Shown here: positions 7,228-36,655 of the stretch, in pieces | How positions within the stretch are numbered: position 1 is the first letter of the stretch | Layout: each line of letters starts with the position of its first letter | Assembly: GCA_015501605.1 (NCBI GenBank) | Contig: JADNRZ010000009.1 | Location: 248,001 to 312,000, forward strand | Reading direction: 5' to 3' | DNA from: Panaeolus papilionaceus | Taxonomy: Eukaryota; Basidiomycota; Agaricomycetes; Agaricales | DNA length: 64,000 nucleotides | Made by a program: the position numbers and the translations under genes | The notes under the pieces: model-generated | Seen by the model: the letters and a program-made list of their open reading frames with translations, nothing else | Database searches by the model: none | What the model was told of the DNA's origin: nothing

Positions 7228-10200
7228 ATGAAAACCAGTCATGGGGCGACAGGGTACAACGATCGCGTGATGGAAGAATCCAAGGCGTTTGTGCATAAAG
7301 ACAGACGGAACCTGGAATGCAGTTCAGTTACCTCTGGGCAACATCTCACATACCCATCAGATTTGAAGCGACATTGGAATCCACAAATGGCTTCATTTGA
7401 CAAAGGGATGAGGCGCACCCAATGGAAAACCCTTCTTGCTCTCTGCCTCGCCTCCGTATTTTTTGTTTTGGCCACAACATCCTGGTCACCACATCTGACG
7501 CTAAGAAATATACAAGGAATATTGACCCGTGACATTTTTCCTGCTTCCACACCCCCGCCAGCGTCCAATGCCGAGGCCACATCCAATTCTGCGTCCCTGG
7601 GCCGAACTGACGAGGTTCAATTTGACAACTATAGCTTGATCCTAAGAGGGCAGAGGATATTCATTCAGTATGTCTTTGGTCTTCTTCATTGGGTATAGAT
7701 GCTAATTTCCTTAAGCTCCGGAGAATTCCATACATTCCGACTTCCCGTTCCGTCCTTATGGCCGGATATTTTAGAAAAGACAAAGGCTGCTGGCCTCAAC
7801 GCCGTTAGTGTGTACACGCATATGGGGCTCATAAACCCTGCACCTGGTGTTGTGGACTTTGATGGCTTCCGTGCACTTCAGCCTTTGTTTGACGCAGCAA
7901 AGGCAGCTGGCATATGGATTGTGTTACGACCAGGCAAGTAACGTCAGATTAACTTCTACTCGGTCTCTACTTAACCGCCACTTCCCACCTAGGACCGGTT
8001 CGTTTTAAATTCGCAGACATCTACGTAAATTGCTCATGACCTCGTGCTTAGTATATCAACGCAGAGACTACTGCAGGAGGAATCGCTCACTGGGCAACCT
8101 CAGAAGTTGCGGGGCAGCTGCGAACCAACGCTACTGATTGGCGTGCAGCATGGGACGCCTACATTCAAGGCATAATCAAAGTTACCATCCCGAATCAAAT
8201 TAACCATGGAGGATCAGTCATAGGTTTGTTTTATCTCGTCTTCTCAATATTACGAAGGTCCTGAAATATTTATCCCTGCAGCTGTTCAAATTGGTTAGTG
8301 TATAATGATTTCATGCAAGGGTGTGTTGCTCATATTTTCACATATCATGCATAGACAACGAGTACACACAAAATCCCATCAGCCATGCCGAATATTTCGC
8401 CGAATTAGAAGAGGCTTTCCATGATTCCGCAATCGTTGTTCCCCTCACTTACAACGATCCAGGACAAGGTCGCAACTTCATAAATGGCACTGGAGCCGTC
8501 GATCTATACGGGTGTGGATCCATGCTTTTAACCGTTGTTTTATATGTACTAAAGTACCTTGTTTAGACAAGACTCGTACCCTCAGGGCTTCGATTGCTCT
8601 AACCCCACGGTGTGGAAACCTGTTGTCACCAATTATCAGCAATACCATGCTCAAGTGAATCCTTCACAACCCTGGTACATACCTGGTAATTTTAAGTGCA
8701 TATCTTGTGTTGACGAGCACATGCTCACTAATATTATTCACAGAATTTCAAGGAGGGTCTTTTGATGCTTGGGGACCCACAGCTCCTGGTAAAATTGCTT
8801 ATTTTTCACTCTACGTTATGCGGACGTTGACCATCAGTCTATTTTGATTAGGCTACGGTCCTTGTCGTACACTTACTGGCGCAGATTTTCAGTCTGTGTT
8901 TAATCTCCAACTTTGGGCAAGCAACGCAAAACTCATCAACTACTACATGCTCTACGGGTAGGCGATCACCTTATCGTGTTTTCTGACTCCAGCCTAACTG
9001 AATCAACAGCGGTACATCTTGGGGAGGCATCCCTTTCCACGGCGTTTATACATCGTATGACTACGGTGCCTCGGTAACTATTGCTTTATTGACCCATATT
9101 CATTTTCATTGAATAATAAATTGTCGCCAGATTACCGAGGGACGAGAACTCACAGCCAAGTTTGATGAACTGAAGCGCCAAGGCCTATTCATTCGCAGCT
9201 CCCCTGAATTCTATAAAACCGACTGGGTTGCTGATTCATCTACGGGACTCAATATATCGTCCAACTCCGCAGCTTTCATTACACAGCTTCGTAACCCAGA
9301 TACAGGATCTAATTTTTATATTGCACGTCAGACAAGCTCCACATCCACGTACGTGATTAATATCTGCGTCCCTGCGTATTTAAATGAAACAAAACGTTTT
9401 CGTTCCAGGTCCACCACCTCGTTCAAACTTAACGTCGCAACATCACAGGGCTCTATTCAAATCCCTATTGTCGCAAACGCAATTACTCTTGGAGGACGCC
9501 AATCTAAAGTAGTCCTCACCGATTATTCCTGGGGCAAGTCTTCAAGATTCCTTTACTCGACCGCTCAGGTTTTCTACGCAGGGACTATCGATAACCGTGA
9601 TGTTCTCTTCCTCCATGGCGACAGCTCTCAAGCGCATGAAACGTCTCTGACATTCACCGGAAAGCCCAACTCGGTACAAAGGAACCCCTTAGTACAGCTC
9701 ACAACCAGGAGCGGCAACGTCGAGTCGGGGACCACTATTGTCAGTTTCCTACCAGGGATTGAAGGGCTGGTTACTGTTTGGGACTCTGACACACAGCTCA
9801 TTTTGTATGCCGATTCGACGACAGCAGCCACATTCTGGTCGCCTGCGCTTGCTGGAAAGGCCGATGATCCGTTGAGGAACTTCTGGGGACTGGGAACTAA
9901 TTCGTCTATCTTGGTTGGAGGGCCGTACCTCGTTCGCGACGCTACTCTCAGTGGTACACAACTGCAACTTCGCGGAGACCTCAAAACGGATGTGCGCCTG
10001 ACTGTTATTGCTCCGAAAGGGATCAGGAGCATCACTTGGAATGGTCAATTGGTCTCGGCTGATTTTGCAGCTGCTAGTTCAGTTACTGCTGTTGGTGGAT
10101 TTGTGGGCCAACTAAAATTGCGAAGAGAGTTGGCAGGTCTGAGTATTCCGAAGTTGACTGGCTGGAGGTTTAAGAATAGCTTGCCTGAAATTCAGAGCTC

Positions 10201-11704
10201 CTTCGACGACAGCTCGTGGGTTCTAGCAAATAATACCAAGACGAACATACCCTTGAAGCCATACTACGGAGACGGCCGGGTTCTTTATGGTTGTGATTAT
10301 GGATTGTAAGTGGCAAACGCTCTTCATTATCGGCATATTGCTTACGGTCATGACAGCTGTGAAAACGCTGTTTTGTGGCGTGGTCATTTTATTTCGAATG
10401 GAAATGAGAAGAGCGTCAATCTCTCAATTAATGGGGGCGAAGGTGAGCATGGGTAATATTTTTATGGTTTTATGCGGTATTTACAATTTGATTGCTAGCG
10501 TTTGCTGCCAGCGTCTGGGTTAACGATGCCTTTTTGGGCACTTCGTTTGGCAAGTAAGTACCATAGACCAAAAAGGTTAAACAGCCTGTCTGGACTTATC
10601 GACTTATCGATGTTTTTCAGTTCAACCAATAACCGCAACATCCTCGAAGAAACCGATGACAAGTTTGTCTTCCCAGCTGGTTCGTTGAAGGATGGCAAAG
10701 ACAACGTTATCACCATCGTACAGGTGTGTTAACACGACTGTTGAGTTACTTCGTGACGGCTTATGTTTTGTCACCACTTCAGGATAACATGGGTCTCAAT
10801 GAAACCCAAGGACGTGAGGACTTTCTTGCTCGCTCTTGATGACCTGCTCAGATGCCTGTATAGAAAATACGGACAGCTCGAAAGGGCCACGCGGTGTTCG
10901 AGGATTTGCACTTGATAACGGCAACACCTTTACGACTTGGAGGGTACAAGGGAAGGTGGGAGGATACAAAGGGTATGTTTTACCTTCATTCCCTTTGCAC
11001 TTCTATCGTCACTTACGTCCTTTATTTTCGTCTCACAGATTCCCTGATAAGACGAGGGGTAAGACATCGTTGAAAAATGTCAGTATGACGCTTACATCCG
11101 CACATTATCGCAGGTGTCTTGAATGAAGGCGGACTTTTTGGAGAACGAAAAGGATGGCATCTACCAGGCTTCCCGACTGGAGACTGGGAACATCGTGACC
11201 TGTCAAGTGGACTTCCAGATAATGCAGCCGGCGTTGGATTTTTCGTCACCACATTCAACCTGGATATTTCCGAAGGTCTGGATGTTATGCTCTCATTCAC
11301 TTTCGAAGAACCCTTCGGACAGCCATATCGAGCATTTTTGTTCGTCAATGGGTGGATGATGGGTAAACGAGTTGGCAACCTCGGGTAAGCTCTATATCCT
11401 TTGACCCAGGATTGTCGTCACCTGCTCATGAACTGCACCCGTACTTAGACCACAAGCCAAATTCCCAGTGCACGAAGGAATTCTTGATTATCATGGTGAA
11501 AAGTATGTCTTAATCTCTCATTTAGTGCGAACATCGACGGATCAATACTGACTTGATCATAGTACCGTCGCAGTGGCATTGTGGTCTATGACTCCCAACG
11601 TGCAGATCACCCCCAATCTCCAGTTGACCCTCGATGCGGTTTATGATGGAGGTGTGGGTAATATCGAAACAAATAACCCGAGGTGGTCTGCAACCGGACG
11701 ATAG
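7228..11704 (+). CDS. Beta-galactosidase, GH35 (complete, 21 exons)
   Basis: Secreted GH35 exo-beta-galactosidase of 1107 residues in 21 exons (3324 nt), paralogous to the truncated gene at the left edge. Family motifs appear in order: IHSGEFHTFRLP (start of the TIM barrel), RPGPYINAE (about residue 220), AVQIDNEY with the predicted acid/base Glu (about 280), PEFQGGSFDAWG with the predicted nucleophile Glu (about 376), then jelly-roll domains ending NPRWS. Reconstructing RPGPYINAE needs a GC-AG intron (7934-7992), a 5-nt exon (7993-7997) and a second intron to 8051. A 12-nt exon (8282-8293) encodes part of AVQID. The signal/anchor hydrophobic stretch lies at residues 68-85, so translation may really start at the in-frame ATGs at 7387 or 7408, which would give a normal signal peptide. 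Fungal GH35 enzymes are usually about 1000 residues, which favours the later start. Confidence 0.93.
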
Positions 11705-16862: not shown

Positions 16863-16942
16863 TATTTTAGTTACATGCATTCAATGGACTTTTCCGAGTA
16901 TTTAGTTACATGCATTCAATGGACTTTTTCCGAGTATTTAGT
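16863..16942. repeat. Direct tandem repeat, two copies of about 36 bp
   Basis: The sequence TTAGTTACATGCATTCAATG followed by GACTTTT and CCGAGTATT occurs twice head to tail, with a one-base difference in the T run, and a partial third start. It lies in the 3' flank of the protease, just outside the transposon. Confidence 0.85.
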
Positions 16943-17061
16943 TTATTTATTCGTAGACGATCTGCTGGTTTTCAGTTCTTCCATTTCGCATTGTCCCCGT
17001 CTCTTATTATCCACATCTGTAGCGTATAATACCGTTTGTATGACCACTATATACAGCCTCA

Positions 17062-17069
17062 TAATGGGT
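17062..17069. repeat. Target-site duplication, left copy (TAATGGGT)
   Basis: The eight bases TAATGGGT immediately precede the left terminal repeat and recur immediately after the right terminal repeat at 28462-28469. An exact 8-bp duplication abutting perfect inverted termini marks a transposition event. Confidence 0.95.
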
Positions 17070-17438
17070 CACCTGTGACTCCCAGATGACAGATCAAATT
17101 AGACTGGAACATGCCCTGAGAGTTCCAGTCTTGTTAGAATGATTTTATATGAGTTCACACTACGCTGAATAGCAATGAATATCTCTGGGGACTTGAACAA
17201 CAGCTAGGAGACTGCTGGGCACTGAGCTATAGAGCCACGTCATTGGGAACCGGGATGTTCGGTAGCCGCTCCCTGTTGTCAGGGACTCATCTTGGCCGAC
17301 GTCCCATCATCACCATCAATGTAGTCGCTGTCATCGCTCCCATCATCAATTATATCGTCGTCGTTGTTGTCCACGACGAGCTCAACATATTATCTTCCTT
17401 TGCTCATTTCAGGCCCGTTTTTTTTTGGAAAAAACAAA
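17070..17438 (+). repeat. Left terminal inverted repeat, 369 bp
   Basis: It matches the reverse complement of 28093-28461 base for base as far as I can read, and diverges after ...GGAAAAAACAAA. The same 65-codon shadow ORF appears in both copies. It contains a 10-bp palindrome near the outer end. Confidence 0.95.
17101..17131. repeat. Subterminal palindrome in left repeat
   Basis: AGACTGGAAC (17101-17110) and GTTCCAGTCT (17122-17131) form perfect 10-bp arms with an 11-nt loop, 31 bp inside the element end. The mirror copy is at 28400-28430. It is a candidate transposase-binding site (inference). Confidence 0.7.
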
Positions 17439-17577
17439 AGTAATTTATTATAAATGTATGTAAATAGCTAATGAATAAAAATAAAGAGCATAAACGTTCA
17501 AAAAAGACAATCAGAAAAAATGAACCAGGAAATCCAAAAAGGAAAAAAAAAAAATCGTGCTCAAAGTCTACATAAAT

Positions 17578-20220
17578 TTAGGCTTCGTCCTCAACGCTCT
17601 CCTCAGACTCCGTATCCGTGTCGACAAACTCGTTGCTGACAATGCGACGAGGTTGAGGGGGTAGTTGAGCCTTGGCCTTGTTGATTTTCTTGTGGGAGCT
17701 TGTTTGTTTGGCGGCAGCTTTGACACCAACGGTCTTTGTTGATTGCTTCGTGTTGGTCACGTTATTCAACGCGCGGTGTGGCAGTGTTGCTGGTGTTGTC
17801 TTTTGCCTCTTGGATGGCCTACCCATTTCGTCGTCATCGGCGTCGTTGTCGTCGTTGTTGGTCGACTTTGGCTCTCTGGGGCCCTTCGTGACGCCTTTAT
17901 CTATCCTCGGTTTCCTCTTTGTTCCAATTACCTCTCCTGCTGCACGCCGTTTGGCCAAATCCTTGTTGTGTGCCGTCAGCTGAGCTTTCGATAACCGTAC
18001 CCAATGACATGCACCCGTTGTAAGAGCATTGTGAAGGGTTTTGAGGTCGTCAATGCCCGTTATTTCAGACGGATTGACAAAATCCTTGTATGTCCATCCC
18101 ACGAGCATCACTCCCAACTTACTAACGATCTGATCCTCATAGTTTATGTAGACCATACGGACCCCCTTTGTCCCGGTGATGCTCTCTATTCGGATACAAT
18201 CAGGATGATGAACCACCGGCGAAGGAAGGGCATATCAACTCACCCAGGGAGCCCGAAATGACCTTGGCACACTCAGAGCGCAGTATCAGGAAGGAAACAC
18301 CGGGTTTCTCTACGGTAGTAAATGAGCAAGATGGATGGTACGTGGTTTGATATGCTTACTGTTCTTATTAGTGACGCACCATGCCTCTAGCCCCCTTGTT
18401 ACATCCCACATCGTTTGACCAAAAGCATCTGGCGCGAAGTCCATCGCGTTCGGTGTAGCCAGCCATCTCGGAGCATAGGATTGCGACATGCTGGACCTTG
18501 CAAAGAAGCAAATCGCAGCGATCTCCGTACGTTCACTCATCGTTATAAGCTGGGGTTAATGATGATTTAGTTCACGAACAGCAAATGGCGGAGGTGAAAG
18601 GGCTACCTGATCATGGAACGACTTGATGTTGGCGGACACATCCTGGGATGAGGAGAGAGCACTGGGACGAACGCCTGTTTTTTTCTTGTCACGTTTGTCC
18701 TCCAGTCTCTTCACCAATTCTTTCTCTTGCACTTTCGACAGGTTCTGGTACCGGGGGTCCTCCTTCACCATTTTCTTCAATGCAGGGACTGCATGACGCT
18801 GGTTGGTTTCAAGGCCTAAACATCAAAGATGGCTGTAAATGTCTACTCAAACGCATCCACACAATGCAAAGCACTGACCAGTATTTATTCTCTTAGCAAG
18901 GTCGCTGACTTTGGCATTCTCGATGTTCACCGCCCTGGTTCCTTTGAGCGGTTTCCCAAACTTGATTTTGCTGATGAGTTCTGGCTTTATGCCATGTTTT
19001 TTTGCCAACGCGGCATCCTCCAGCTCCCGAGCTGCCTCGAGCTTGGCATACTCTTCCATGAATGCCGTTTCTCGTGCCTTTGCCAGCTCACGCCCAATGC
19101 GCAGGGTTTTCTCCTGAGCTGGACCCCTTTTGTTATTCTTTTTGGCCTTTTGTACGTACTGGCCATCGGCGTCTGAGTCTTCGTCTTCGGAGCTGAAGGT
19201 GAGCTCGGAGGGAAGGCTTTCCGGCTCATGGGAAGGACTACGCTCGGACATTTCCTCGTTATCAGGTTCAGCACCGTCTTCATCACTGAGGTTATGGAGC
19301 TCGAGGCTGCTGTCGATGTTGCTATCGCGGCTAGCAGCTGTTGAATGGTTGGAAGAGGGGTCGTTCAATGGCTGTTGAATGTCATTGGCAGGTGATGGGG
19401 GACGGCTCAACGGCTGTATGTCGTTTTCGTCCTCTATAATGTGCTCCTCTTGCGCTGGTGATTGTGGTATGTCAGGATCCGGGATAACCTCGGGGGGTAA
19501 AAAGGTGATAGTCTGCGAAGAGGTCCGGATGACGGGTGTGTGAGGTGATTGGTTCCTGGATGGTGCTTGTGCAAGGGGTCCAAAATGAACCCTTGCGTCT
19601 ACATTCTGAAGAACATGGCTGTGAGAGATGTGTGTAGGCTGGCGTAGTAGGGCTTGAGCTGGTTGGCCTTGAGCTGCAGGTTGGATTTGGAGGGGTGGTA
19701 AAGTGAATGAACCCCTTGGCTCGTTGCAGGGGAAGGCGGCGTTGGTAAGCGAATTTAAACTAGGCAGCGTAGGACGGGGTATTCCCAACTGAGGTTGATG
19801 GGCAGGACCTCGGCTAGGTTGGGCGCTTGGGAATGGGTTGGCTGCTCTCATGCCATGCTGGCAGTCTGACCGTGGCAAAGTCGCCATTGCTGGCGCTCCA
19901 GAGCTTAATGCTGCCGGCATTGGTGCAGGCGCTTGAATAGGCGATGGTAATGCGGGGAGGTGAGGCATTGGGGTCCACCTTTGGTTAGGGTGGATGGGCC
20001 TTTGGTTGGAGTGGATGGGGTGGCTGTGGTTGTAGCTGGGTTGGGTGCCATGGTTTGTGACTCCTCTGCCCCATGGCTGTGGGTGGGGTGGTTGTTGATG
20101 ATGCTGGCGGTGAGGATGGATGGTTTGGTTCCACCAACCGTTGTTGCGATGGTGGCTGGGCAAGCTTGACCCATGACTCATGCCTCTCAAGTGGGGGTTT
20201 TCGTCGTGTGCTCTGTTCAT
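17578..20220 (-). CDS. Transposon cargo protein of unknown function, 804 residues
   Basis: Five exons (20220-18879, 18815-18607, 18549-18360, 18309-18244, 18185-17578) total 2415 nt. I do not recognise a named domain. Residues 1 to about 250 are Pro/His/Gln/Asn-rich and probably disordered. Then comes a strongly acidic Ser/Asp/Glu segment (about 270-380) and a Lys/Arg-rich helical stretch. A compact, Trp-containing region follows (about 480-690), with blocks such as SERTEIAAICFFARSS, QTMWDVTRGLEAWCVTN and VYINYEDQIVSKLGVMLVGW. The C terminus mixes basic motifs (GRPSKRQK, nuclear-signal-like) with a final acidic tail. The layout suggests a nuclear, chromatin- or DNA-associated protein; that is inference. 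It is divergent from the viroplasmin-like gene across a 350-bp spacer. Confidence 0.8.
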
Positions 20221-20570
20221 GGGCGGTCAAAGGTAGCTCAAGTGCTGGGTGGGATTTTGGTTTTTTTTTTGGGGGGGGACGGGTTTTTTCTTTTGTGGGC
20301 ACTCAGTATATAGGGAAGGGGCCTGCCCTAACCAAAAAAAATATTTCAATACTATATGGTGGCTCATAGACTGTTGTATAATGTTACACGTGAGTCGTGT
20401 TTGACGGTATGTGGTTTTTTGTTGAACAAGGGTCCGCTATGTTGAATGCCAAAAATGGGATTATTTTTTCAACCCATCTGCCAATTTTTTTGCCCCACCT
20501 TTTAGTTTTCAACCGCCACCACAACCGTGACCTCCCAACTCTTCTCCTGCCTCCCTCTGCTGTCTCTACC
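20221..20570. promoter_or_regulatory. Shared spacer between two divergent cargo genes
   Basis: Both flanking genes are transcribed outward from this 350-bp stretch, so it should hold two promoters. It includes homopolymer T and G runs near 20260-20290. No conserved site can be assigned by eye. Confidence 0.5.
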
Positions 20571-21944
20571 ATGCATACCTGTAAGTATAGACAGCCTGCC
20601 CGCTTTGTTCCAGCTGCTGACCGACCCATAGTCTCCAAAACTCCAATTTCAAAGGGAAAAGCTGCAGCTCCAGCTCAAGGTAAACTTTTGCAAAGCCACC
20701 TGGTTAGTATTATGTCTGACACGATTAAAACAGGGCGAAATGAATCTTATGGCTGGGAAACCGATGTTGAAAGTCAGTTTGCAATGCCTGTTTTTTTCAT
20801 AAACTGATTGATCCAAAAATTCCATTCATCCAGCTCATGTCGACGACGAGGAAAGCTATTGGTCAACCAGAGACAGATTTGAACCGCTTGAACATGTATC
20901 AGCTCCGCCTCACGAGGAGGCCCTTCATCGCGACTACTGCGAGGTTAATAGGACAAGCGGTAACTGCGCATATGTGGTGTTTGGTCACCACGCCCAGGAC
21001 GGGATTTTCCGCAATTGGTATGCCCTGCATGAAGGCATTAAAAATCGCACTAAATTTTCGACAGGTCATCCTGCATTGACCACTTGAGTAGCACCTATGG
21101 TCCCAAGAAAAATCGCCCATTTTACAAGGGATTCAAGGTTGACGGCGAAGCGGAAAAGGCCTGGAATGCTTTCAAGCAGTCTGGCCAGATTCCGAGGGGT
21201 CTTATCAGGCATGGCGCCGAAATGCCGGTTGCCAGGCCTTCTCCACAAGCAACCCCCATGAGGCCTGCCCAACCCTCAACGCCTACAAGACCTGGTCATC
21301 ATCAGACCATCAACTGCAGTCAGCCTTCTGGTGCTGCACAACGTTTTTTTTCACCCTCGCCGACATCATCCCCATCTCGTCGGTTTGTTTCCCCTCTTGC
21401 CTCTCGGGCGACCACCCCCCTTCGAACCAGAGAGGAAGCTAGCCCCTTCCAAACCGCTTATGCTGGGAGTCAACCCCCCATGGCGTCAACCTCTCAATTC
21501 CCTTTCAATTCACCCAACATTACGACGCGGGGGTCCTCTAAGAACAGCTCAGCTCATCTGCAATCGCCCCAGCAAGGTCCAAAATTCAACCTGCTCAAAA
21601 TGAGTCGCATGACTGAGAGGAAATGGAGAGAGTCTAGCTCTGCAGCGCCGATACCTGATGGCGCCGATGAATATTTTGTAGTCATCAAAGGGTTTCAACC
21701 AGGCGTTTACACAGACATGTATGTATACCGCTACTGTCACACCTTTGTCACAACACTAACAGGCATCCTGTTCTCTAGCAATGACATGCTGGACTCTTTT
21801 CCAGAAACCCCTGCGCAATGCGACGCCTTCCGAGTTACGAGCCGGGAATTAGCACTCAGGATGTTTGCTGAGTCTTTCATGGCTGGGGCAGTTGAGGTCA
21901 TTGAGCCCTTTGATGAAGGGGATTATGAAACCGGTTTCTATTGA
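20571..21944 (+). CDS. Transposon cargo protein with two RNase H1 N-terminal (viroplasmin)-like segments
   Basis: Five exons (20571-20679, 20734-20772, 20834-21017, 21065-21718, 21779-21944) total 1152 nt, 383 residues. Residues about 95-150 read YVVFG..., GIFRNW, a Cys, then FYKGFKVDGEAEKAW. This is the pattern of the small RNA/DNA-hybrid-binding domain at the N terminus of RNase H1 and in caulimovirus viroplasmin (YVVxxGxxPGIYxxW...GxxEAExA). A second, more divergent copy starts at about 313 (YFVVIKGFQPGVYTD) and ends near the C terminus. Between them is a Ser/Pro/Thr-rich linker. No catalytic RNase H domain is present, so binding and not cleavage is expected. The role in transposition is unknown. 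Confidence 0.72.
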
Positions 21945-22842
21945 TATTGACACCGCCTTTTCTTTGAATCATCTATATGCTATCCATCCCTTCCTTCCTG
22001 ATTTCATACTCTCTTTAAAAATCTCAAACCTTTTTGCCCCATGTCCTCAAACACGACAGGATGAACTCTCTTTTTATGGCCGCTTTTTTTTTTCAATGGA
22101 CTTTCTCTAGCACTGTTTTGACCCATGGACAACGTAGCAGAGACACTCTAGCATTGTTGATATGCTTATGGTAGTTAGTTTAGTGCCGTTATCCCTATAT
22201 ACCTACAGATCGCTAGTGTCATGTATGCTTTCTTGTTGACTTATACCAATTCCATTTTTTACCCTTACCCGAATGTTGATTTTAGGGGGAACCCTTGAAG
22301 TTTGATTTTGTGAATTTCATGTGGGAAATTCCATGGAAGCATTCCGATTGGCTGCGGAGCTCCTGGACCGTGATAAATCTCAGACCTTCGAACTTGCCAG
22401 CCTTCAACATCTACTATCTGAGCAGCTATAAAGCTACATCCCCTCTATAAACCAAATGATTTTATGTTAGAAAGTTACTATAGCACACTTTTAGACCCTA
22501 ATTGTGCTGTAAAATCAATGGCAGTGAGTTTAGACAAACATGCATAATCTGGATGGATTTCATTCGAAGTTATATATGCAAAACATCACCTTTGACTCAA
22601 GGTTGATGCTATGGAATGCTTTTGACATATATTCAATGGTCAAAGGCTTGTAATCACATATCATAACAATATCCTGACTTGCTCACCCCATGAAAGGGAT
22701 GATAACAAGTTGGATACAGAGAGTTCGGTTGATCCATGCCTCAGGTATACAACTTCTCGACCAATATTTCTATTTGCCTGTATAATCTCTCCTTCCTTTC
22801 GAAATTCATGAGGGCATGGAAAGATTGATCCATTCATTGAAA
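21945..22842. other. Convergent 3' flanks inside the transposon
   Basis: About 900 bp between the stops of the viroplasmin-like and TET/JBP genes. It is AT-rich with no supported ORF; it may hold 3' UTRs. Confidence 0.5.
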
Positions 22843-24253
22843 CTATATACAGGAAGTTAACTCTTCATATGTAGAATAGAGCTTGAGCGATTCAAGCCAC
22901 CTCTCCGACTTCTGCTCCATCTGGCTATCATACATCTGTCTATGTCGAATCTTAAGCTCCGATTCAGTCATGCATGAGTTCATGACCCATCTAAAAAGTC
23001 CACCAGCACTGTACTGAGTAAATGAAAGCCTGCACTCGCCTTCTTGGACAGATGTGTTGGAGTGGGTGAGGCAGGCGGAGGGTATTAAGATGGTTGAGTA
23101 AGGGGGAAATTCAATAGCCAGCTTAAGATCCCAAAGGATGAGGTGACCTCCAAGCTTTGGATCAAAGTCACCCATGGACTGAATGGCGCATAGGCCATAG
23201 GGTAAATTCAATGAGTCGCGATGTTTAAAGGTTCGCACCTGAGGGCCTAGGTTGAGAGTGGCACATGCGAAGGCAATTCCGGGGAAGTTGCGGTTTGCAC
23301 CCGTTGCATTCTCCACTGAATTTAGCGTCTGTTGATAATGGAGATAAAGGCGTGGGGCCCATAGCTGAAAGGCGCCTAGATGAGGTCATTGGGAGCATTA
23401 GCAGAGGTCTGCGATTTAAGTATGCTAGGCTCACCATCAGCATAACTTGCCATTCGATGCAGGTCTCTATCCTGGAGCAGTGAGGCGATGAGTGTGCTGT
23501 GTGAGCCTGATGACAGCCGCTGGGGCTTAGTTTGCCCATTTCCATAGGAAATCCCAAAGGCGATGGCTGGGAATGCGCCACGGCGATGCATGGTTTCCTT
23601 GTCAGAGAACGTCTCGAGATCCCTCGCAGTCTGAGCCCTCAAAAAAAAATTTTGGCATGCCTGAACATAGGCGGGGTCCCTCGGTCTCCCTGCAAGGACT
23701 CCTATGATGCGTCCTTCACAGTCAGACAAGGGCATGGGGTCACTAGGTCAGAAAGGGTCAATACATGTATTGAGAATTGACAAAATAGCACCTACACGCC
23801 GTCCCACTCCACCACCCTAAAACCCATGGCCTCCAGATCGCCCAGTTTATACTCCCTTTCATTTTCGGCCTTTGTTCCACCCAGTCGCATCCCAGAAAAG
23901 GCTCCCTTGGTTGCAGGCATGGAGGAGGCATCATATGGCAGGTCAATATGTTCTGACAGCTGCACATGCTCAAAGATCGTTCGCGGGCTCGCACTGTGTC
24001 CACGAGATTCCACAGCCTGCTTGCGTTTATGAGCCCTTTTCCGATTCCGTGAAGACTGATGGGGGCCTTGATCGTCGTCAATCTGGGTGGCCAATACAGC
24101 CGATGCAGCCATTGTGGGAGTCTGTTCAATGAGGGCCTGCTCCAGGTCATCGGGCTCATCTACTTGACTTGCCATACAACCTGCTACTTCGTCCAAGGCC
24201 ACTGTCATATTGAACCCATTCAGTTCAATCCTAGGCATGGGCTTGCAGTTCAT
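22843..24253 (-). CDS. TET/JBP-like 2-oxoglutarate/Fe(II) dioxygenase
   Basis: Predicted nuclear oxygenase that converts 5-methylcytosine to hydroxymethyl and further oxidised forms using Fe(II), O2 and 2-oxoglutarate. Three exons: 24253-23796, 23742-23435, 23375-22843, total 1299 nt, 432 residues. ATG 24238 is an alternative start. The N-terminal 100 residues are polar with a basic RNRKRAHKRK patch. The core has the WDGV...GRIIGVLAGRP lead-in typical of fungal members and the metal-binding KHRD motif (H307, D309). It continues with GGHLILWDL, IEFPPYSTILIPSA, the distal His in THSN (H360), and the 2OG-binding Arg with SFTQYSAGGLFRW (R371). All ligands are present. The first intron is best placed with donor GTAGGT at 23795; a donor two bases upstream would break the frame. 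It is divergent from the transposase. Confidence 0.88.
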
Positions 24254-24563
24254 CAGTAACTTAGATGAGCGGTAAGAATAGCTCAGAGGCTCCTAAAATA
24301 ATAACTGCCAGAAAGCGTACTGGCTCGGATCCAGGGGTGATTCCAAGTCAGCAAGCATCCTAGCAGTTATTTTCTAGGTCCGATGAGGGTTTGAATCCAT
24401 GGAGAGGCTTACTGGGGAGGCAGTACTCGACACTGTGCTTGTCATGCTGAACCATGGAAGACGGAAAAGGCAATTCTCCCTCTCCTGCAAATGAAATCAG
24501 CTGAGTTCCAACATCCCGTCATGTGACTCCACACTGCTCTTCTGGAGGCCTTTGCTCGTTGCC
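24254..24563. promoter_or_regulatory. Shared spacer between TET/JBP and transposase genes
   Basis: This 310-bp region separates two genes transcribed in opposite directions, so it should carry both promoters and could co-regulate them. No clear TATA box is visible. Confidence 0.5.
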
Positions 24564-27500
24564 ATGCCCATCGGAATTGTACCCTCTAAAACGTCTGGAA
24601 AGCCAGCATGCAACACAGTCCAGCACTTATTCAGGCAGCAAAAGGCTCAGGTAGCAGCCAGCAACCCATCTCTCACCCGTCAACCTCAACCCAGTGCCAG
24701 CTCATTGATGCCCGGCTCTGCATTCTCTAACAGCGTCATACACACCCACTCCGGTTATCGAAAAAAGGCCAACAATGAACGCCTGACTCGACGGGCCTTA
24801 CAAGCTCGCATTCAGGTCGAGAAAGAGGAGCAAGCTCTGCGGCTTAGCGCCTTGTCTACAAGCGAACGCGATGCCCTCAAGGCAGCATGTGCACCGTTGA
24901 ACGATGTCTCCCCCTCAGATGATGTTGACGACGATAGTGATGGGCACATGCACATTGATCCGCTGGATGTTCTTAGCGGGGGTTTGGCAATGGATATTAG
25001 CCATGCTGGTGGAGAGCTGAGTGCCCTTTTATCTATTGGGGATGACCTTTTTGGCGTAAACAGGTGGGTAGCCTTATTTCCTATTGCTATGCTAGTGTCT
25101 GATGTGTTAATAAAAATAGGACGAAATATCACGATTACAGGACGCGTCGTAACCGCGTAGAGTGCCAGAATCTGGCATTCAATGCACAAATGGATGCTAT
25201 GGTTAGGTCGTACATGGCATGGGCACATGCAAAGGGGGATGAAGTGCTGTCAGACGAGCACAAGGGCCCAGAAGCTGTTCAAACTGGGCCATTCAGCAAG
25301 CTGCTGGTCATGGATACCTTTTGTGAGCCATTTCCAGGACCCTTTCCCTGCGTTGAGCTAACCCAGATGCCCCAGATGCCCGCCAAGTTCAAGTTTATCA
25401 CGGCGAGGGCGACGAAACCGTCGTTGCCTCCATAATTCGCCACGGCTATATACCTTGCTCCCCTCTTCGACCCTCTGTCGCCTTTACCGTCAGGACGCTT
25501 CAAATGTATCAAACCGCTCGCAATCGCTGCCCCCAGCTCTCCATTCATTCCTTCATCAAAACCCTTTGCGACCTCTACCAACGCCCTTTTAAACGCAGCC
25601 TGTCGCGTCAATTTTCCATATGCCTAGACCTGTACCTTGAGCTGAAGCGTCAGGTGGAAGCTCAGGTCATGGCCGCTCTTCAGCGCGATACTCCGGACTG
25701 GCGGCTACGAAATGCCTGCATCGCCTGCACCTACAGGTTGAAGGATGAAAAGCACCTTAGGTTCAAGATGCTGTACACCGTTGACGGAAACGACTCCCTG
25801 AAACGCATTGCACGTCGGGAAACTGCAGCGGAATACGATCCTGAGAAGAGCGACCATCCCGTCTTAGGCGCATCCTCCGAGTCTATTGACAGTCGCCGTG
25901 TGGGGCAGGGCCTTCATCTTACCAGAGAGGAGGTTGATTCCCTTTCATCTCGGCAAACCGGGGAGGGGGACGAGGAATCTGTTGAGGATGGAAACCCTTG
26001 CGCAGAACGCTGGCGTAATATGAAGACCTCATTGACTGCCAAGATGTGGGGGGTGTTTGAGGAGACTGGGATTTTTGTTGCCCTTTGCCGCCACGGGTTT
26101 ACACTGCTAACAACGGACATGGTTAGAAGCGGTGAGCTGTATGGTGTTCTCTATCATCATCACCCCTTCCATGCTCACCACACGCCAACCTTAGCTCAAA
26201 ATATCCCGTTGCCATCGTCTCCAAGATGGTTGATACATTTGGAGAGGATTTAGCCTTGGGTTATGACATAGGGTGTCGCTTTTCCACCACCCTTTCAAGA
26301 AGCTCCATTGCAAGCAAAGTGAAGAAGAATCGTCATTATTGCCTCGTGGGTGCTTTTCACGGGCACGCGCACAACCGACTCTGCCAGTCTAAAAACCTAG
26401 CAACCTACGTCGAGGGCGTTGGCCTGGAGGGCTTTGAAACCTGCGAGCCGCATTTCTCAGAGACCAACAAAATGGCCCCATCAACAAGGCACGCCAGCGA
26501 ATTCCACCGCCTGCAAACATTCGTAGAGTTTACCAACCATAGGGACCGCTTCGAAAAATATCAGAACCTGAGTAAGTGTTTGCCGACATAAGCAGTCATT
26601 GGTATTGATTATACGACAGGCACTCATCTGCTCAACAACTACAAGCAAGCACTATCGATATTGGAGACCAAACACGACGTAATGGAGACTTTGAATAGGC
26701 TTGGAGCGGAAAGCGGTCAGGCTGTTGAGAAATGGCTGAGGGAAGAGGAGGAGTACCTGTCCTCCCTGAAGCGGGAGCCTCCAGAGGAAACGCTGGAGAT
26801 GGAATACTTCGTTCTATTGGGGAACCTCATGCTGGCTGAGTGAGTGGCTATTTAGGGCATCACGATTTACTTACCAAGACCTCTTCCAGGGATGAGCTTG
26901 CACAGAACGATGAGCTCTTTGCCGCCAATGTCACCCCCCAGACCATTCATCTCCCTGACAAAACTCAAACCACTGAAACCGCGCGTCGACATCTACGAGA
27001 GACCCATTTCGCCCGCCTGAGTGCCGTGCAAACGATGGAGAAGCGCGCGGGCATTGCGGTCCGATGGACGAGAGATTCAGAGAAGTGGAGGGAGACAGAG
27101 CAGAGGGTTGTTCTTCGCCAATATCAAAGGAGCTTGGACACCCTGGAGGGCCTCGTGGTAGCTCGTATGTTTGAGCTTACCAAGATGAATATGTCTCAGA
27201 CTGGTTAGTACGCTCTCATCTTTTCCTTGACCGTTGCCGTATTAATCAGCATCCTATTAGGCTATAGCCTTCGAAAACACATTGCAGCGGCGCTCAAGAG
27301 TCGGTCTAAGGCAATTCGAACCGCCCTTGTCAAGTATAACGCCGCCGCCGCCGCTCTCAACCCCCCTAGACAAGAGCTGACATGGGAGGAGGTAGTTGAC
27401 TATGCCTTTCTTGCCGACTTCGACCTCCTACGTGACTGCCGGCAAGACATTCGACAACGTCCTTGGGCAACACCAGCAGCTCGACACGCGTTGGACCGCT

Positions 27501-28048
27501 ACTTCAAACTACTACGCGCCGCAGAGGAAATTGACCGCCTGAATATCGAAATCCATAGGCTATGGACATTTATTCGGCATGAGGACGCATTTCTCCTCTC
27601 TAAGGAGCAGGAGATATCGGCCACCAACCCCACCCTTGCCTCTGCCATTCGCTCCTATCGCTCCGAGACCTGCCGCTTCATCGAGCACCATACTACGATC
27701 CTCAATCAAATCCGTCAGCTCAAAGGCTACACCGGCAAGCCTGCGTCATGCTTTGGGGTCCCCATTTCGCCTCCCCCCTCATCAACAACCTCTGCACCAG
27801 CTGCACCTACTACAACGCCCTGTGCACCTCATGCTCCCGCATTGTCCTGCTCGCCAACCAGTGCCCCTCCGTCGTCAACACCAGCCAAATCAACCAACTC
27901 GCCCCACACGATCATGGATATTGATGATGAGGACGACAAGGATGAAACCGAGGACGATTTCGAACAGGATCAGGAAGGGGAGGACCAGGATGAGGCAGTC
28001 TTATCGGCCTATACAAGCTTACTCACTATTTCTAATGACTTGTCTTAA
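24564..28048 (+). CDS. KDZ (Kyakuja-Dileera-Zisupton) transposase
   Basis: Seven exons (24564-25063, 25120-25322, 25388-26138, 26195-26571, 26620-26839, 26890-27203, 27261-28048) total 3153 nt, 1050 residues. Characteristic KDZ blocks appear in order: KYHDYRTRRNR and MDTFFQVYHGEGD (about 230, putative first Asp), GELSKYPVAIVSKMVDTFG, LGYDIGC (about 508, putative second Asp), GAFHGHAHNRLCQ (about 540), GVGLEGFETCEPHFSETN (putative Glu), and a long helical C-terminal part. The tail is Ala/Pro/Ser/Thr-rich, then strongly acidic (DDEDDKDETEDD). The family uses an RNase H-like DDE fold to cut and join element ends. The gene is open throughout. ATG 24564 is the first in the exon; a 5' exon further upstream cannot be excluded. 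Confidence 0.9.
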
Positions 28049-28092
28049 TATCATTACCCATTCCGCTGTTTATTGTAATTAATTGATTTTTC

Positions 28093-28461
28093 TTTGTTTT
28101 TTCCAAAAAAAAACGGGCCTGAAATGAGCAAAGGAAGATAATATGTTGAGCTCGTCGTGGACAACAACGACGACGATATAATTGATGATGGGAGCGATGA
28201 CAGCGACTACATTGATGGTGATGATGGGACGTCGGCCAAGATGAGTCCCTGACAACAGGGAGCGGCTACCGAACATCCCGGTTCCCAATGACGTGGCTCT
28301 ATAGCTCAGTGCCCAGCAGTCTCCTAGCTGTTGTTCAAGTCCCCAGAGATATTCATTGCTATTCAGCGTAGTGTGAACTCATATAAAATCATTCTAACAA
28401 GACTGGAACTCTCAGGGCATGTTCCAGTCTAATTTGATCTGTCATCTGGGAGTCACAGGTG
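28093..28461 (-). repeat. Right terminal inverted repeat, 369 bp
   Basis: Inverted copy of 17070-17438. The outer end reads GTCACAGGTG and abuts the right target-site duplication. The transposase stop codon lies 45 bp inside it. Confidence 0.95.
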
Positions 28462-28469
28462 TAATGGGT
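28462..28469. repeat. Target-site duplication, right copy (TAATGGGT)
   Basis: Exact match to 17062-17069. The 336 bp beyond it, up to the sen54 stop, holds no gene. Confidence 0.95.
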
Positions 28470-30880: not shown

Positions 30881-31985
30881 TCAAGTGACATTGAAGTTGG
30901 AGATATCTTCCGCCACATCCCTCGTCTGAATCCTGTAAAGGATTATCAGGGGTGCAGCGACCTTGATCAATGTCAGAAGGGCACACTAGAATCCAATTAT
31001 GTGAGATTCCACTCACGTAGAGGTGGATAGCGCTCAAAGCCAGGAGCCCTGCAGCCGGGATAGACAATGATAGTAGGACAATCATAATAACGTTGAACAC
31101 TACAACCAGGGCTGCCGACTCCGGAAGGATAACGATAATTCTTCGACATAGCGAGCGATGTCCAGGTCCAACGAGCCTCAGGAGTCTTGAATGGTGTAGC
31201 CATAGGCGTATGGAAATCAAGCCAGTGAATATGATGTTGATGAACGTGCTAACAGAGGCGAAAATAGTCAGTGGTCCAATGACAGGCCGCCATGGTGGGA
31301 CGTAGACATCGAGTTTGAATGGACTGAACCAAGCTGCGAGGAACGCAATCCCGCTGACTTGATTAAATCGAGTTAGTAGTAGCCCGACGCAAATGCTCAT
31401 AAATGTATTTACCAATCGAAGCAAAAGCGATTAGGAAGGGAAATACACACAAAGTCAGGTGTCTAGGCCTCGGTATGTCTCTATAAAGTACCAGGCAACG
31501 CCAAATCTGCATTGCGTAAATGGTAATTGGGAAGCCAGACACGAGATTTCAGGTGCACGCACTCACCATAAACCCATCCATGCCCCAATTGACAATGGTC
31601 AAACATGTTTGCCCAACGAGGTGCGTTAAACCGCAATAAGAGCATTTGGCCTGATCGGGGAGAGAAGTACTGATTCCCAGCGGTAAAAAATAGGTATCGA
31701 ATGCCGCCTACAGCAAATGCAACATCCACAGTGGTTTGGCAAAGGCTCAACAGCATCATTGTCGTCATGTATGTGGCGAAAAAGTATCGCATCCTTTGCG
31801 ATCTCTGGCTATGCTTGCCCAAGACCAATACCATACATTTCACGTATAGGAGAATGAGGAGACTGGAGCCAAACGCAGAACATATCGTGCCAAGTATGTA
31901 CCCAATATTCGGTCAAAATCAGTCGGATGTGGTAGAGAGCACGTATCCCGCTGAAGGCGATAGAGTCAGGTCGGATTTGACTCAT
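30881..31985 (-). pseudogene. 7TM membrane protein family, copy 1 (frameshifted)
   Basis: This has the same four-exon plan as the intact copies (approximate exons 31985-31567, 31508-31415, 31362-31015, 30961-30881). The first exon carries two lesions. A four-base gain lies just after the conserved EYW in TM1 (near 31895), and an extra base follows YFSP (near 31660). Restoring frame after each gives normal family sequence, so these are breaks in an old gene or sequencing errors. Exon 3 is fully open, with three hydrophobic segments. Exon 4 stops at NFNVT, about 60 residues earlier than copies 2 and 4. It is most like copy 3. Confidence 0.72.
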
Positions 31986-32524
31986 AGGCTGTTTGAGGTG
32001 TAGGATGGAAAGGCGATGCGATGCGAATGCTGTCTATGTTATATACGTACGCATCTGACTAGCCAGCACATTGGCTCCATCAAAACCCATCCATTTCTGG
32101 CGCACCATTAGGACGGAAAGTCAGCCGTATAAAATACAGGGCAGTATCGCCTGTGAGAGATTGATAAGATAGCAGTGTGACAGGAATACTTGGGATTCGT
32201 GGTTCATAGAAAATGTCTGTCCTGGTCTTGTTGTTCTTGCACACATGCGAGAATCCATGTCCAGATCCGAGGATTGATAAGGGGAGATTATAAAATGGTT
32301 TAGCGTGTCGAGCACAAATACATATACAAAGTGCGGCGCAACCTTCGTAATCAACCGAAGGGGCTCAAACATCATCACGAGACCCACTGTTCGTTTCAGC
32401 ACTAAAGGTAACGGGTGATGGTTTCACGAAGACCCAACTGGGATCACTGATGGAATTCCAGATAGCCATGCGGAAGCTTGAATTCCGATGCAAGATGGCA
32501 CTATGAGGTTATCATCATTATGCA

Positions 32525-33830
32525 TCAAACGAAGGATTTATGATCTTCGCTATTGATTGTCGCCGGCTCCCGACTGGAAGAGGCCGGGTGAACGATGTCA
32601 TCTGTGAATTGAGTTGTGGTAAGGCAATTGGATGGTTGTTCCCATGGTACAACAGCTTCGGGAGAGCCGGTGTTGGATGTCGCAAACTGGAGTGGCTCGA
32701 GTTGTGATCGTCTGGATACGCATTGTTCAAGTTGTCTGGTGACATTGAAATTCGAAATTTCTGTCACCACATCTCGGTCGCTATGAATCCTGTAGAGAAT
32801 AATCAAAGGGGACGCGGCCTTCGTTGAAGTCAGCAGAGGCTAACGGGTTGGAAATGCATCAGAGATTTCACTCACATAGATATGAACAGCGCTACAGGCA
32901 ACAGGCGTCGAACCTGCGGGGAATAAGAACAGCAGAACGATCATGACAATGTTCGCGACAACCACCACAGCTGCTGATTCCGAAAGGATGATAACAACCC
33001 TTCGATATATTGACCCATATCCTGGTCCCAGAATCTTCTGAAGCCTTGACCGATGTAACCACAGGCGTACAGATATCAAGGCGGTGAATGCGATGTTGAT
33101 GAAAAGAGTGACCGAAGCGAAGAATGAAAGTGGACCAATAACGGGTCTCCAAGGCGTTTCTTTGATGCCAGAGAGCTGGCCTGGAGCGAGCGATGGCACG
33201 ATGAACAAAATGCCGCTAGCTTTAAAACAATCAGTCAGATATGGTATGATTTTATTTTATTTTATAAAGACACTCACCCAGTGATGCACCGCCGAGGGCG
33301 AAGGCAAATGTGCATAGAGCCAGACGGCTGAGCCTGGGCAGGTCTCTGTATAGTACCATGCACCTCCAAATCTATATTTCAACATCGGTGTGTTAGTTTC
33401 AAATTAGAGTCAATTCAATAACATTGTCAACGCTCACCATGAACCCATCCATGCCCCAGTTGACCGTGGCCGCGCTGACCTGCACAACTATTTCCACTGC
33501 TTGACAGTATAAGCATTCGGCCTTCTCAAGAGAGAAGTATTCGGATCCAACTTGTGCAACTAGACGTCGAACGCTACCGATAACAAACACACCAGTCGCA
33601 GTGGTTTGAATAAGGCTTAGAGACATCATCGTAGTCATGTACGTGAGTAGGAAATATCGCATCCCTCGAGATCTCTGGCTCTGTTTATTCCAGACCAACA
33701 CCATGCATTTAACATAGAGCAAGACCAGCAAACCACAGCCAAACGCTGAGCATATCGCAGCAAGGACCCAGTTCTCCACCATGAGCAGTTGGTTGTTATA
33801 CATTTCGGACATCTGCGTTACTTGGCCCAT
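32525..33830 (-). CDS. 7TM membrane protein family, copy 2 (intact)
   Basis: Four exons (33830-33438, 33371-33278, 33219-32876, 32818-32525) total 1125 nt, 374 residues. Seven hydrophobic segments can be read: VENWVLAAICSAFG..., YFLLTYMTTMMSLSLIQ..., VQVSAATVNWGMDGFM, LALCTFAFALGGASLASGI, VIGPLSFFASVTLFINIAF, SAAVVVVANIVMIVLLFLF, and a last one ending YVAASPLIILYRIH. A polar cytosol-type tail of about 90 residues follows. The N terminus is short with no signal peptide, and the loop after TM2 contains a CxxC pair. This is a receptor-like topology. It does not match the STE3 pheromone-receptor motifs I know, and I do not recognise a named family. Confidence 0.85.
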
Positions 33831-35490
33831 TGGGTTGTTGATGAGAGTGTTGACGAAGGGTGAAATGGGCGAGGGGATGGGTTGAGGGTGTTAAATATTG
33901 CCTATTCATAGCCACCAGTCCCAAGATTCAGTTCCTGCGTTGTTTCGTCAGTTTTGCCAAGGAGCAGCGTCATGATAGTCAAGTCCTGTCAACTCGAGGG
34001 TGTTGTAGCCGATGGTGTCGGTCATCTGATTCGCAGACAACTTGCCCGTATGGATAGACCAAAGCGGTCAATCAGTGATAGCTGGGGGTATGTACGGCCC
34101 ATAGATTTCTGACGGCGATTATTCGCCTCCGCAAGCAGTGCAAGATGACAAAGGAAGATTGCAGTGGAGATAGCCAGAGTGTGCTTGGAAAGATTTAAGG
34201 TTGTGTCGTTATGTCTGTGGTTTCATCGTTTCCATATCCTTCAATTTCAAGGGGTTTGTTAAGTGTGCATAGTTAGATTGTGTAGTTCAGGAGTCAGACG
34301 GAACACAGGCTCTATGTGCCAATCCTGGTTTTTCAAGATTCAGACTCCGCAATCAGGGGCGAATAGCGACGAGTCCAGATTGAATCCAGACTCCACCCAC
34401 CAGCCTGAGCTGCGAGGGCTTAAGATTGTAAGCTCCAAGAGGATGTTTGTCACAAAGGCCATCGTAAATCACATTTACAGAAATAATAATCCGTCATTAA
34501 AAAGCTAGTGCTGGGAATCCATGATAATAAAAAACCACTGGCATCCAGGAAAAAAAAAAGACGGATAATCTCTGTGCCTAAATCAGGAAGTAATTTCCGT
34601 TTTTGTATGCTTGGATTTTTGGTAGCAGGCACTTGGCAAGAGGCTTCAGATCTCGCGATCGCGTACATGGTGAACCCACGGGTGGGGGGTACCCCCACCC
34701 CCCCAAAAGCGGTATAGCGCGATAGCGGCATGATGGCGGCATACCTCAGCCATCAGGAGGTCGGCTCCCTGCCATTTCTCGTCCTGTACAATATGCGACC
34801 AGTAGGCACAATCTTTAGTCTTACTACAGTACCTGCTCTTTTGCGTTGTCGAAGTTGTGATTTATGAGTTCAATGAGCATCATTTACGCATACCCCGATC
34901 CCTGACAAGCTGCAATTTAGGCTGTAACTCATTAATTCCAACGGCTCGATGCATTCAATTGAATCCAATCCAAATGAACTTTCTCTTTACAAACATATTT
35001 CAGAATGTCCCTCAAATTTATATCTAGGAGGATTATCGCCTCGTAAAACCGACCAGTGCACTTCAAAAAATGTGCTTTCACTTACGAGTATGAGGCCAAA
35101 TCCGACAAGATTCCACTCTCCCCATTACTTATACATTTTTGGCTTGTCATATAGGGCCTTTCGGTTATTGTTTTCTCCAAGATATGAGAGACATTTGGAC
35201 TCCTCAGCATTCAGTTTCACGAGGACCAGACTGGCCATCCTCCTTGCACATAATGATCCAATCACTGTGCCGGCGAGCCGGACATGAAAAATCAAAGCAT
35301 CCCTGAATCATGGTTTGATTCCTATGGCCGCGATCGCTGGATCTGACACCTCTTGGCACTTGGCGGGCACCATGATCCTTAGTGTCACTGAAACTTGGTT
35401 GAAACGTTGAGGGTTGGTGCTAGTCGATAACTGGATACTAGCTCACATCATGGGATAGCCTACATCTCAAAGTTGCATGATATATAAGCT
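33831..35490. other. Intergenic within the 7TM array
   Basis: The first 600 bp (5' flank of copy 2) resembles the 5' flanks of copies 4 and 5, for example the CGCCTCCGCAAG...GCAAGATGA block near 34120. A GC hairpin, GTGGGGG/CCCCCAC with a 3-nt loop, lies near 34683-34700. The rest is unremarkable. Confidence 0.5.
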
Positions 35491-36655
35491 TCATGCGCTT
35501 TGAGAAGACTGGGGTGACTGCTGAGTTGCACATCCGAGTCGTTCAAGTTGTTGGGTAACATTGAAGTTGGACATTTCTGCTGCCACGTCCCCCTTCTGAA
35601 TTCTGCAAAGAATAATCAAGAGGGAAGCGGCCTAGATGGACGTCAGAAAGGTGAGCCAGAACTTAATAGAAGTAGACCACGCTCACATAGACATGAATAA
35701 CGCTCAAAGCCACAAGCCCCACCAACGGTATGAACAAACAAAGTAGAACAATCAGAACAACATGACTACAACCAGGGCTGCCGACTCCAGGAGGATGATA
35801 ACAATTCTTCGATATACCGACCGGTGCCCAGGTCCAAGGAGCTTCTTAAGTCTTGATTGGTGTCGCCATAGCCGTATGGAAATCAAGGTGGTGAATACAA
35901 TGTTGATGGAAATGGTGGCAGACGCAAAAAGGGTCAGTGGTGCAATGACAAACTTCCACGCTGGAATGTGGGCATGTATATTGTAAGGAGAGAACCAAGG
36001 TACGATGAACAAGATGCCGCTAACTTTATCACAGAGAGTTAGTGTTGTTGTAGTCCATTGCGAATGTTCACAAACATGCGCCTACCTAATGACACAGTGC
36101 CAAGAAACAAGGAGACCATGCTTAGAGTTAAGTGTCTAAGCCTGGATATGTCTCTATAAAGTACCAGACAACGCCAAATCTGTATTATATGAATAGCATT
36201 AGGATGTCGAAGAAATTATGTTATGTGCAGACACTCACCATGAACCCATCCATACATCAATTGACAGCGACCAAGCATGTTTATCCAACAAGGCGCGCTA
36301 CCCCACAATAAGAGCATGTGGTTTCGTCAGGAGGGAAGTGCTGGTTTCCAACTGCAAAAACCAGGTGCCGAAAACTACCTACAGTGAACGCAGCGTCCAC
36401 AAAGGTTTGACAGAGACTAAAGAAAACCATTATGGACATGTATGTTGCGAGGAAATACTGCATCCTTTGCGATCTGTGGCCGTTCTTGCCGCCCAAGATC
36501 AATGTCATACATTTCACATATAACAAAACGAGGAAACCAGAGCCAAACGCTGAGCATATCGTGGCAAGTGCCCAATATTCGTTCAGAATCTGTTGGTCGT
36601 AAAGTATATCAGGTAACCCGTTTAAGTCCATAGAGTCGCGCCAAGGATGGTCCAT
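35491..36655 (-). pseudogene. 7TM membrane protein family, copy 3 (nonsense and frameshift)
   Basis: This is closest to copy 1 (shared EYW, HRSQRM, SLCQT and NFNVT features). The first exon is open to LVG. It then hits TAA where the family has CAA (VGQ), and a few codons later TGA where it has TGG (N-W in NWGMDGFM). Exon 3 loses a few bases after SAALVVV (near 35765), shifting the frame through TM6. Splice sites at the other junctions are still recognisable. Three independent lesions make it a clear pseudogene. Confidence 0.82.

Follow-up and report, generated by a model that had tools for sequence, protein, structure and literature searches.

Does a TET/JBP-like dioxygenase gene carried by a DNA transposon serve that transposon, and do the genes beside it serve the same machinery? 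The question is raised by a 64,000-nucleotide stretch of the genome of Panaeolus papilionaceus (assembly GCA_015501605.1, contig JADNRZ010000009.1, positions 248,001 to 312,000 of the forward strand; hereafter the window), which holds an 11,392-bp element at 17070-28461 with four genes in the order A(-), B(+), C(-), D(+). Gene D encodes a KDZ transposase, gene C a TET/JBP-like protein, gene B a protein with hybrid-binding domains, and gene A a possible DNA-binding protein. Iyer and colleagues are said to have reported in 2014 that KDZ transposases are associated with TET/JBP genes in fungi. Our comparison of this element with its relatives in the same genome suggests that genes D, A and B are core genes of a KDZ lineage with long terminal inverted repeats (TIRs), and that the TET gene is an optional accessory, which some members acquired or retained and others did not.

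The element ends in two 369-bp inverted repeats that are 100% identical, and it is flanked on both sides by an exact 8-bp target site duplication (TSD), TAATGGGT (Table 1), a combination far beyond chance. Genes A and D each terminate near one TIR, A at the left and D at the right. Its identical ends mark the element as young. TIRs and a TSD thus bound the transposase, the arrangement by which the KDZ superfamily is recognised, and the 8-bp length agrees with that of Zisupton elements and has also been reported for Dileera (PMC12730594). An earlier note, made from the letters of the window, had described the perfect terminal repeats, the 8-bp duplication, four genes that splice without breaks, and a complete KDZ transposon carrying a TET/JBP-like gene with two further genes; this description is borne out, as all introns are GT-AG, internal stops number zero, and gene D matches PF18758. 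That host genes merely sit between inverted repeats of chance origin is an account to which we give virtually no credence, given the exact duplication, the KDZ transposase and the five other copies that end in the same way; on the same grounds, a chance inverted repeat was rejected. A tandem repeat with a period of ~35 bp (2.2 copies, window 16866-16943) lies ~120 bp outside the left end.

Table 1. Features of the KDZ element, in window coordinates
Feature	Position	Strand	Basis
TSD, left copy, TAATGGGT	17062..17069	.	exact match to 28462-28469
Left TIR, 369 bp, starts CACCTGTGACTCCC	17070..17438	+	100% identical, inverted, to 28093-28461
Motif ACGACGAGCTC within left TIR	17373..17383	+	mirror copy at 28148-28158; TIR alignment
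Gene A, 5 exons, ~780-800 aa	17578..20220	-	splice model, relatives, Mycena homologue model
Gene B, PF01693 protein with two hybrid-binding units	20571..21944	+	splice model, Pfam
Gene B, first hybrid-binding unit	near 20950-21180	+	unit comparison
Gene B, second hybrid-binding unit, intron inside	21660..21881	+	unit comparison
Gene C, TET/JBP-like 2-oxoglutarate dioxygenase, 3 exons (24238-23796, 23742-23435, 23375-22843)	22843..24238	-	splice model, relatives
Gene D, KDZ transposase, 7 exons, 1,044 aa	24564..28048	+	splice model, Pfam
Right TIR, 369 bp	28093..28461	-	100% identical to left TIR
TSD, right copy, TAATGGGT	28462..28469	.	exact match to 17062-17069

The gene models are stop-free, with start codons and some introns chosen by hand, and the spliced products comprise 782 (A), 392 (B), 427 (C) and 1,044 (D) residues. 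Gene D contains a whole KDZ domain (PF18758, E = 7.5e-69, profile positions 1-217). Upstream of this domain, a match covers the C-terminal half of CxC1 (E = 7.7e-6) with 26.4 bits, just under the Pfam cut-off of 26.9 (28.0 bits when the exon is searched alone), and weaker CxC3 and CxC2 matches are also present. Candidate catalytic D, D and E residues were picked by eye from what we take to be the motif of these transposases.

The genome searched comprises 50.9 Mb in 71 contigs, and the window element is the copy on C71. KDZ matches occur in 134 stretches, and the gene D protein as query identifies 13 places of its own transposase lineage, with weak KDZ matches on C2, C34 and C43:95598 (25-28% identity) and the fragment C30:32318 left out; all place counts given here are hand groupings of exon matches, and the searches yield lower bounds. 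A KDZ tree of 14 segments, built on 118 alignment columns and without C14b, C61 and C15, falls into two groups (support 100/99) separated by a branch of 3 changes per site, with a warning of long branches from the tool. The first group contains C71, C17, C14, C48, C67, C30 and a long-branched C13, while the second, the commoner KDZ-TET type, contains C24, C10, C9, C23, C27, C43 and C55. On this tree, a deep split separates the long-TIR KDZ lineage of the window element from the commoner KDZ-TET elements of the genome, and the notion that all KDZ-TET elements of the genome are of one kind was rejected. The C13 KDZ-TET pair (C13:269481-273321) stands apart on long branches both here and in the TET tree described below, and is possibly a third lineage.

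TIRs were found at six of the seven first-group places examined: 369 bp at C71, 327 bp at C17 (99.4% identity), 343 bp at C48 (99.4%), 368 bp at each of two C14 copies (99.5 and 99.2%), and 129 bp at C67 near 1.72 Mb (98.5%). At C30, no TIR surrounds the genes within the 18 kb examined, and around the KDZ and TET genes of the commoner type no inverted repeat longer than 13 bp was found in any of ten stretches. All six complete copies begin with CACCT and finish with AGGTG. The search for further copies that the earlier note had called for thus added five with the same type of ends, whose gene sets are compared below. The motif ACGACGAGCTC is present in the TIRs of four of the five aligned element families, with C48 having ACAACGAGCTC, and is absent in C67; it is a candidate binding site.

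Direct, exact 8-bp duplications flank four of the six complete copies (C71, C17, C67 near 1.72 Mb, and C48). The two C14 copies, both carrying TET (C14:193951-204165 and 216630-226844), are mutually inverted, and the flanks of each do not match. Instead, the flanks are swapped: the left flanks are reverse complements of each other (TTTTTCAT), as are the right flanks (CACGGGGG), and each of these sequences borders one end of each copy. In the simplest reading of this pattern, two copies inserted separately and later recombined with each other, which produced an inversion.

Whether the window element can still move is less readily judged than its structure. Its 14-bp terminus occurs six times in the genome, at both ends of the C71 and C17 copies and as single ends on C4 and C70. 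Such a short list, just two full copies and two single ends, would be expected of an inactive relic that was mobile in the past and is so no longer, as would the condition of the other full copy, in which ~1.46 kb within gene D (C17:671960-673421) does not match the transposase protein. The window copy itself, in which the 369-bp ends are perfect, the duplication is exact and all four genes are open, speaks against a relic, which we regard as unlikely but give appreciable weight; from the sequence, we infer that the element may be active, as the earlier note had it. The single ends C4:630665-630775 and C70:75591-75723 are 88% and 74-76% identical, respectively, to part of the window TIR, and no second end was found in the 6 kb examined at either.

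Comparison of gene sets across the 13 places separates the constant genes from the variable one. Gene A lies near the transposase at ten places, seven found in a first search and three more with a Mycena relative as query, and gave no match in the genome beyond the places of this lineage at E <= 0.001. Gene B is found at nine places (C71, C17, C48, C6 twice, C16, C14 twice, and C67 near 1.75 Mb, the last by one 39-residue match with E = 0.008), always on the transposase strand and between D and A wherever A is known; the only other gene B matches in the genome, at thresholds from 0.001 to 1, are two that do not rise above chance (E = 0.97 and 0.24). TET genes occur at ~28 places in the genome by hand count, and at four of the 13 places of this lineage. 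Gene B occurs without a detected TET at five places (C48, C6 twice, C16, and weakly C67 near 1.75 Mb), and gene A does so also at C30 and C67 near 1.72 Mb, at both of which A and D share a strand and no B was seen. No TET was found at C48, C30 and C67 near 1.72 Mb when these stretches were scanned with the profile, C48 being scanned whole, nor at C6, C16 and C67 near 1.75 Mb in the genome-wide TET search, the only one covering them. Of the other KDZ-TET loci, eight were scanned, including C13, and none of these eight showed a gene A match or a hybrid-binding unit.

The earlier note had supposed that the proteins of genes A and B may be part of the same 5-methylcytosine (5mC) oxidation machinery as the TET protein. 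This part of it was not supported: both proteins occur in relatives where TET was not found, and genes A and B were rejected as TET partners for that reason. Because they are present in relatives without a detected TET, A and B look instead like core genes of the transposon. A cooperation confined to B and C could still be imagined, in which B, sitting on R-loops of the transcribed element, brings the TET protein there; B and C are neighbours in C71, C17 and C14, and in mammals GADD45A brings TET1 to R-loops (PMC13078211). However, the five places with gene B and no detected TET imply that TET recruitment would not be the first role of B, and we consider such cooperation improbable.

Between the C71 and C17 copies, differences per codon position are.40/.33/.62 for gene A,.41/.31/.67 for B,.32/.23/.58 for C and.23/.16/.55 for D, as calculated without one exon of A and the first exon of B. 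In each of the four genes, third positions show 1.9 to 3.4 times as many differences as second positions, which indicates that selection maintains all four even though the two copies separated long ago. Within each copy, the two ends are near-identical despite this old divergence, and therefore each lineage has transposed, or had its ends homogenised, in recent times.

Gene B is supported by a public P. papilionaceus protein, BJ165DRAFT_1469401, which maps exactly on it for 360 of 366 residues, the remaining six falling at the start of that protein or at splice joints. All four spliced B proteins (C71, C17, C14 and C48) contain two short units with a hairpin pattern, with the intron at the same place in each unit, and all four exceed the PF01693 cut-off of 21 bits (27.2, 40.5, 22.7 and 23.6 bits), which single exons do not reach. 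In the genome, PF01693 is over the cut-off only at C12 near 1.3256 Mb, which may be the host RNase H1. The hybrid-binding domain of RNase H1 binds RNA:DNA hybrids and double-stranded RNA. In the gene B proteins, Pfam reports no RNase H catalytic domain, and the first unit alone matched zero RNase H1 structures in the PDB by sequence.

Gene A comprises a low-complexity N-terminus, a conserved core and a C-terminal domain. Exon 2 was extended by hand to 18607 following the C17 copy, giving an 804-residue version that was used in the searches; the intron after the extension is 57 bases long and GT..AG. The predicted fold of the Mycena relative matches NRF1 (8k4l), GTF2I repeats and the MADS box at weak scores, and the predicted structure of the family places a dimerisation hairpin before a second DNA-binding domain, the same order as in NRF1 (PMC10810270). 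These models make gene A a possible NRF1/GTF2I-like DNA-binding protein.

Of the two profile matches that the earlier note had named as a check, that to KDZ is strong, whereas that of Tet_JBP to gene C is a trace (E = 0.029), at 14.1 bits where the cut-off is 34.9, so that the assignment leans on relatives. Specifically, three of five family members match Tet_JBP at E <= 1 (best 4.1e-6), and kin at the commoner KDZ loci match it at 23-29 bits (maximum 29.1), also under the cut-off. Gene C shares 36-61% of its residues with four other members of the family in the genome and retains HxD (H302, D304), H355 and R366. This HxD..H..R core of 2-oxoglutarate- and Fe(II)-dependent enzymes is invariant in five of five and seven of seven aligned rows, C9 being absent from both alignments, and is common to CcTet of Coprinopsis cinerea and human TET2 (PMC11040006). 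The common-type TET copy on C9 (C9:1095921-1096436) has HxN in place of HxD and is probably without activity.

Counted from the first His, seven aligned rows have Asn at +5 and Cys at +11. By this simple offset, which is not a structural alignment, the Asn falls at the position of hTet2 Asn1387, corresponding to Gly331 of CcTet, and the Cys at that of CcTet Asp337, the residue that takes over in CcTet (PMC11040006). In contrast, the Kyakuja TETs, and AG-type TETs generally as described by Kojima 2025 (PMC12730594), have Gly/Ser at the first position and Asp at the second. The offset suggests that gene C has a conventional 5mC-type pocket, rather than one for both 5mC and N6-methyladenine. In an unrooted TET tree of 11 rows, which omits C15 (its pieces joined poorly), C14b and C55, the C71, C17 and C14 proteins form one group (support 96/97), and C13 lies between this group and seven common-type TETs. 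A single capture, or a single ancient inheritance, would explain this tree better than would recent acquisition from the common type. The TET places on C20, C39, C57, C32 and others stand outside this detailed comparison.

The TET gene might nevertheless be a passenger without effect on silencing, or encode an enzyme for another base modification. Just four of the 13 places carry it, no protection is visible in CpG content, and the family matched no solved TET in a sequence search. On the other hand, the catalytic residues are kept in the five and seven aligned members, C9 with its HxN lying outside them, and third codon positions of gene C change most between C71 and C17, which points to selection on the protein; we judge the passenger explanation unlikely.

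Elsewhere in the window, positions 30885-40995 contain an array of related units of ~1-1.4 kb in the same orientation (72-77% identical in long pairings), and two open reading frames there matched no Pfam family. Two related stretches, 162-1670 and 9113-11688, are 73-79% identical; the latter overlaps an open reading frame with beta-galactosidase domains 2 and 3, and the pair are probably paralogous beta-galactosidase genes. An open reading frame with DUF6535 (E = 5e-39) lies at 57734-58987.

Several parts of this system have precedents, which we cite from the portions of the papers available to us. TET-bearing Kyakuja and Zisupton transposons of Agaricomycetes have been published (Kojima 2025, PMC12730594) and share CA..TG termini with the window element. 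However, Kyakuja has 7-bp duplications and no TIRs, and those portions of Kojima 2025 mention neither hybrid-binding nor gene-A proteins. KDZ1-3 of Cryptococcus neoformans, which were shown to move, resemble the window element in size (~9-11 kb), long TIRs (139-241 bp), a KDZ transposase with CxC1, and duplications of 8 bp (KDZ1) or 4-8 bp (KDZ2 and KDZ3); the likeness is one of description, not of sequence, and no TET, hybrid-binding or gene-A protein is mentioned for them in the available text (PMC12810828). TIRs in KDZ elements are not new, because TIR motifs have been characterised in those of Marasmius oreades, for which the available text mentions no cargo, unlike the window element (PMC8290104).

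The closest gene set by description lies in the long copy of helpo1.3 in Pleurotus ostreatus, where capD (a PHA03247 hit), capE (PF01693) and capF (an RNase H-fold putative transposase) were described as Helitron-captured genes (PMC4289320). This trio lies within inverted repeats and resembles A, B and D; unlike the window element, no TET is mentioned for that copy in the text available. We infer from the descriptions that the trio could be a nested, TET-less relative of this lineage that was read as captured genes. A long-TIR KDZ element that carries gene A and a hybrid-binding gene, or a set of this kind in which TET is optional, was not found in the open-licence literature; Iyer et al. 2014, outside that scope, could describe such genes. 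TET-bearing KDZ elements and KDZ TIRs are thus known already, and this gene set was not found in print.

Taken together, we lean, with modest confidence, toward the reading that the element is a young, autonomous-looking cut-and-paste transposon of the long-TIR KDZ lineage, in which D, A and B form the core and TET is optional anti-silencing cargo. The transposase would cut at the CACCT..AGGTG ends and insert with an 8-bp duplication, the ends and duplication being observed in the element and the activity being suggested by its kin, as Cryptococcus KDZ1-3 are active. The gene A protein might bind within the long TIRs and aid the pairing of ends or drive the promoters of the element, a step that we hold with weak to moderate confidence. 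The gene B protein, through its two hybrid-binding units, would bind RNA:DNA hybrids or double-stranded RNA of the element, and may thereby protect or mark transcribed element DNA against RNA-based silencing or R-loop removal. The gene C protein, which has the catalytic residues, would oxidise methylated cytosine on the element and adjacent DNA and so weaken methylation-based silencing. A demethylation role for the TETs of KDZ elements has been proposed in print, and reports of oxidised methylcytosine around Kyakuja in Coprinopsis are retold by Kojima 2025 (PMC12730594); both back this step and make such a role plausible for gene C.

A bolder version would join all the parts into a full counter-silencing kit, in which an NRF1-like dimer binds CpG-containing sites in the TIRs solely in their unmethylated state, TET keeps these sites unmethylated, and B guards R-loops from RNA-directed silencing. 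We think this a long shot. If it were true, methylation state would be a switch on transposition itself, and the TET-less form with A, B and D would be widespread and mistaken for captured genes, as in Pleurotus.

TET genes are already known from fungal transposons. A single genome of P. papilionaceus holds TET-bearing and apparently TET-less members of one lineage with shared core genes, and the anti-silencing idea is therefore directly testable in it, through methylation, expression and movement. Furthermore, the lineage extends the usual parts list of DNA transposons by a hybrid-binding protein and so hints at a connection of transposition with RNA:DNA hybrids.

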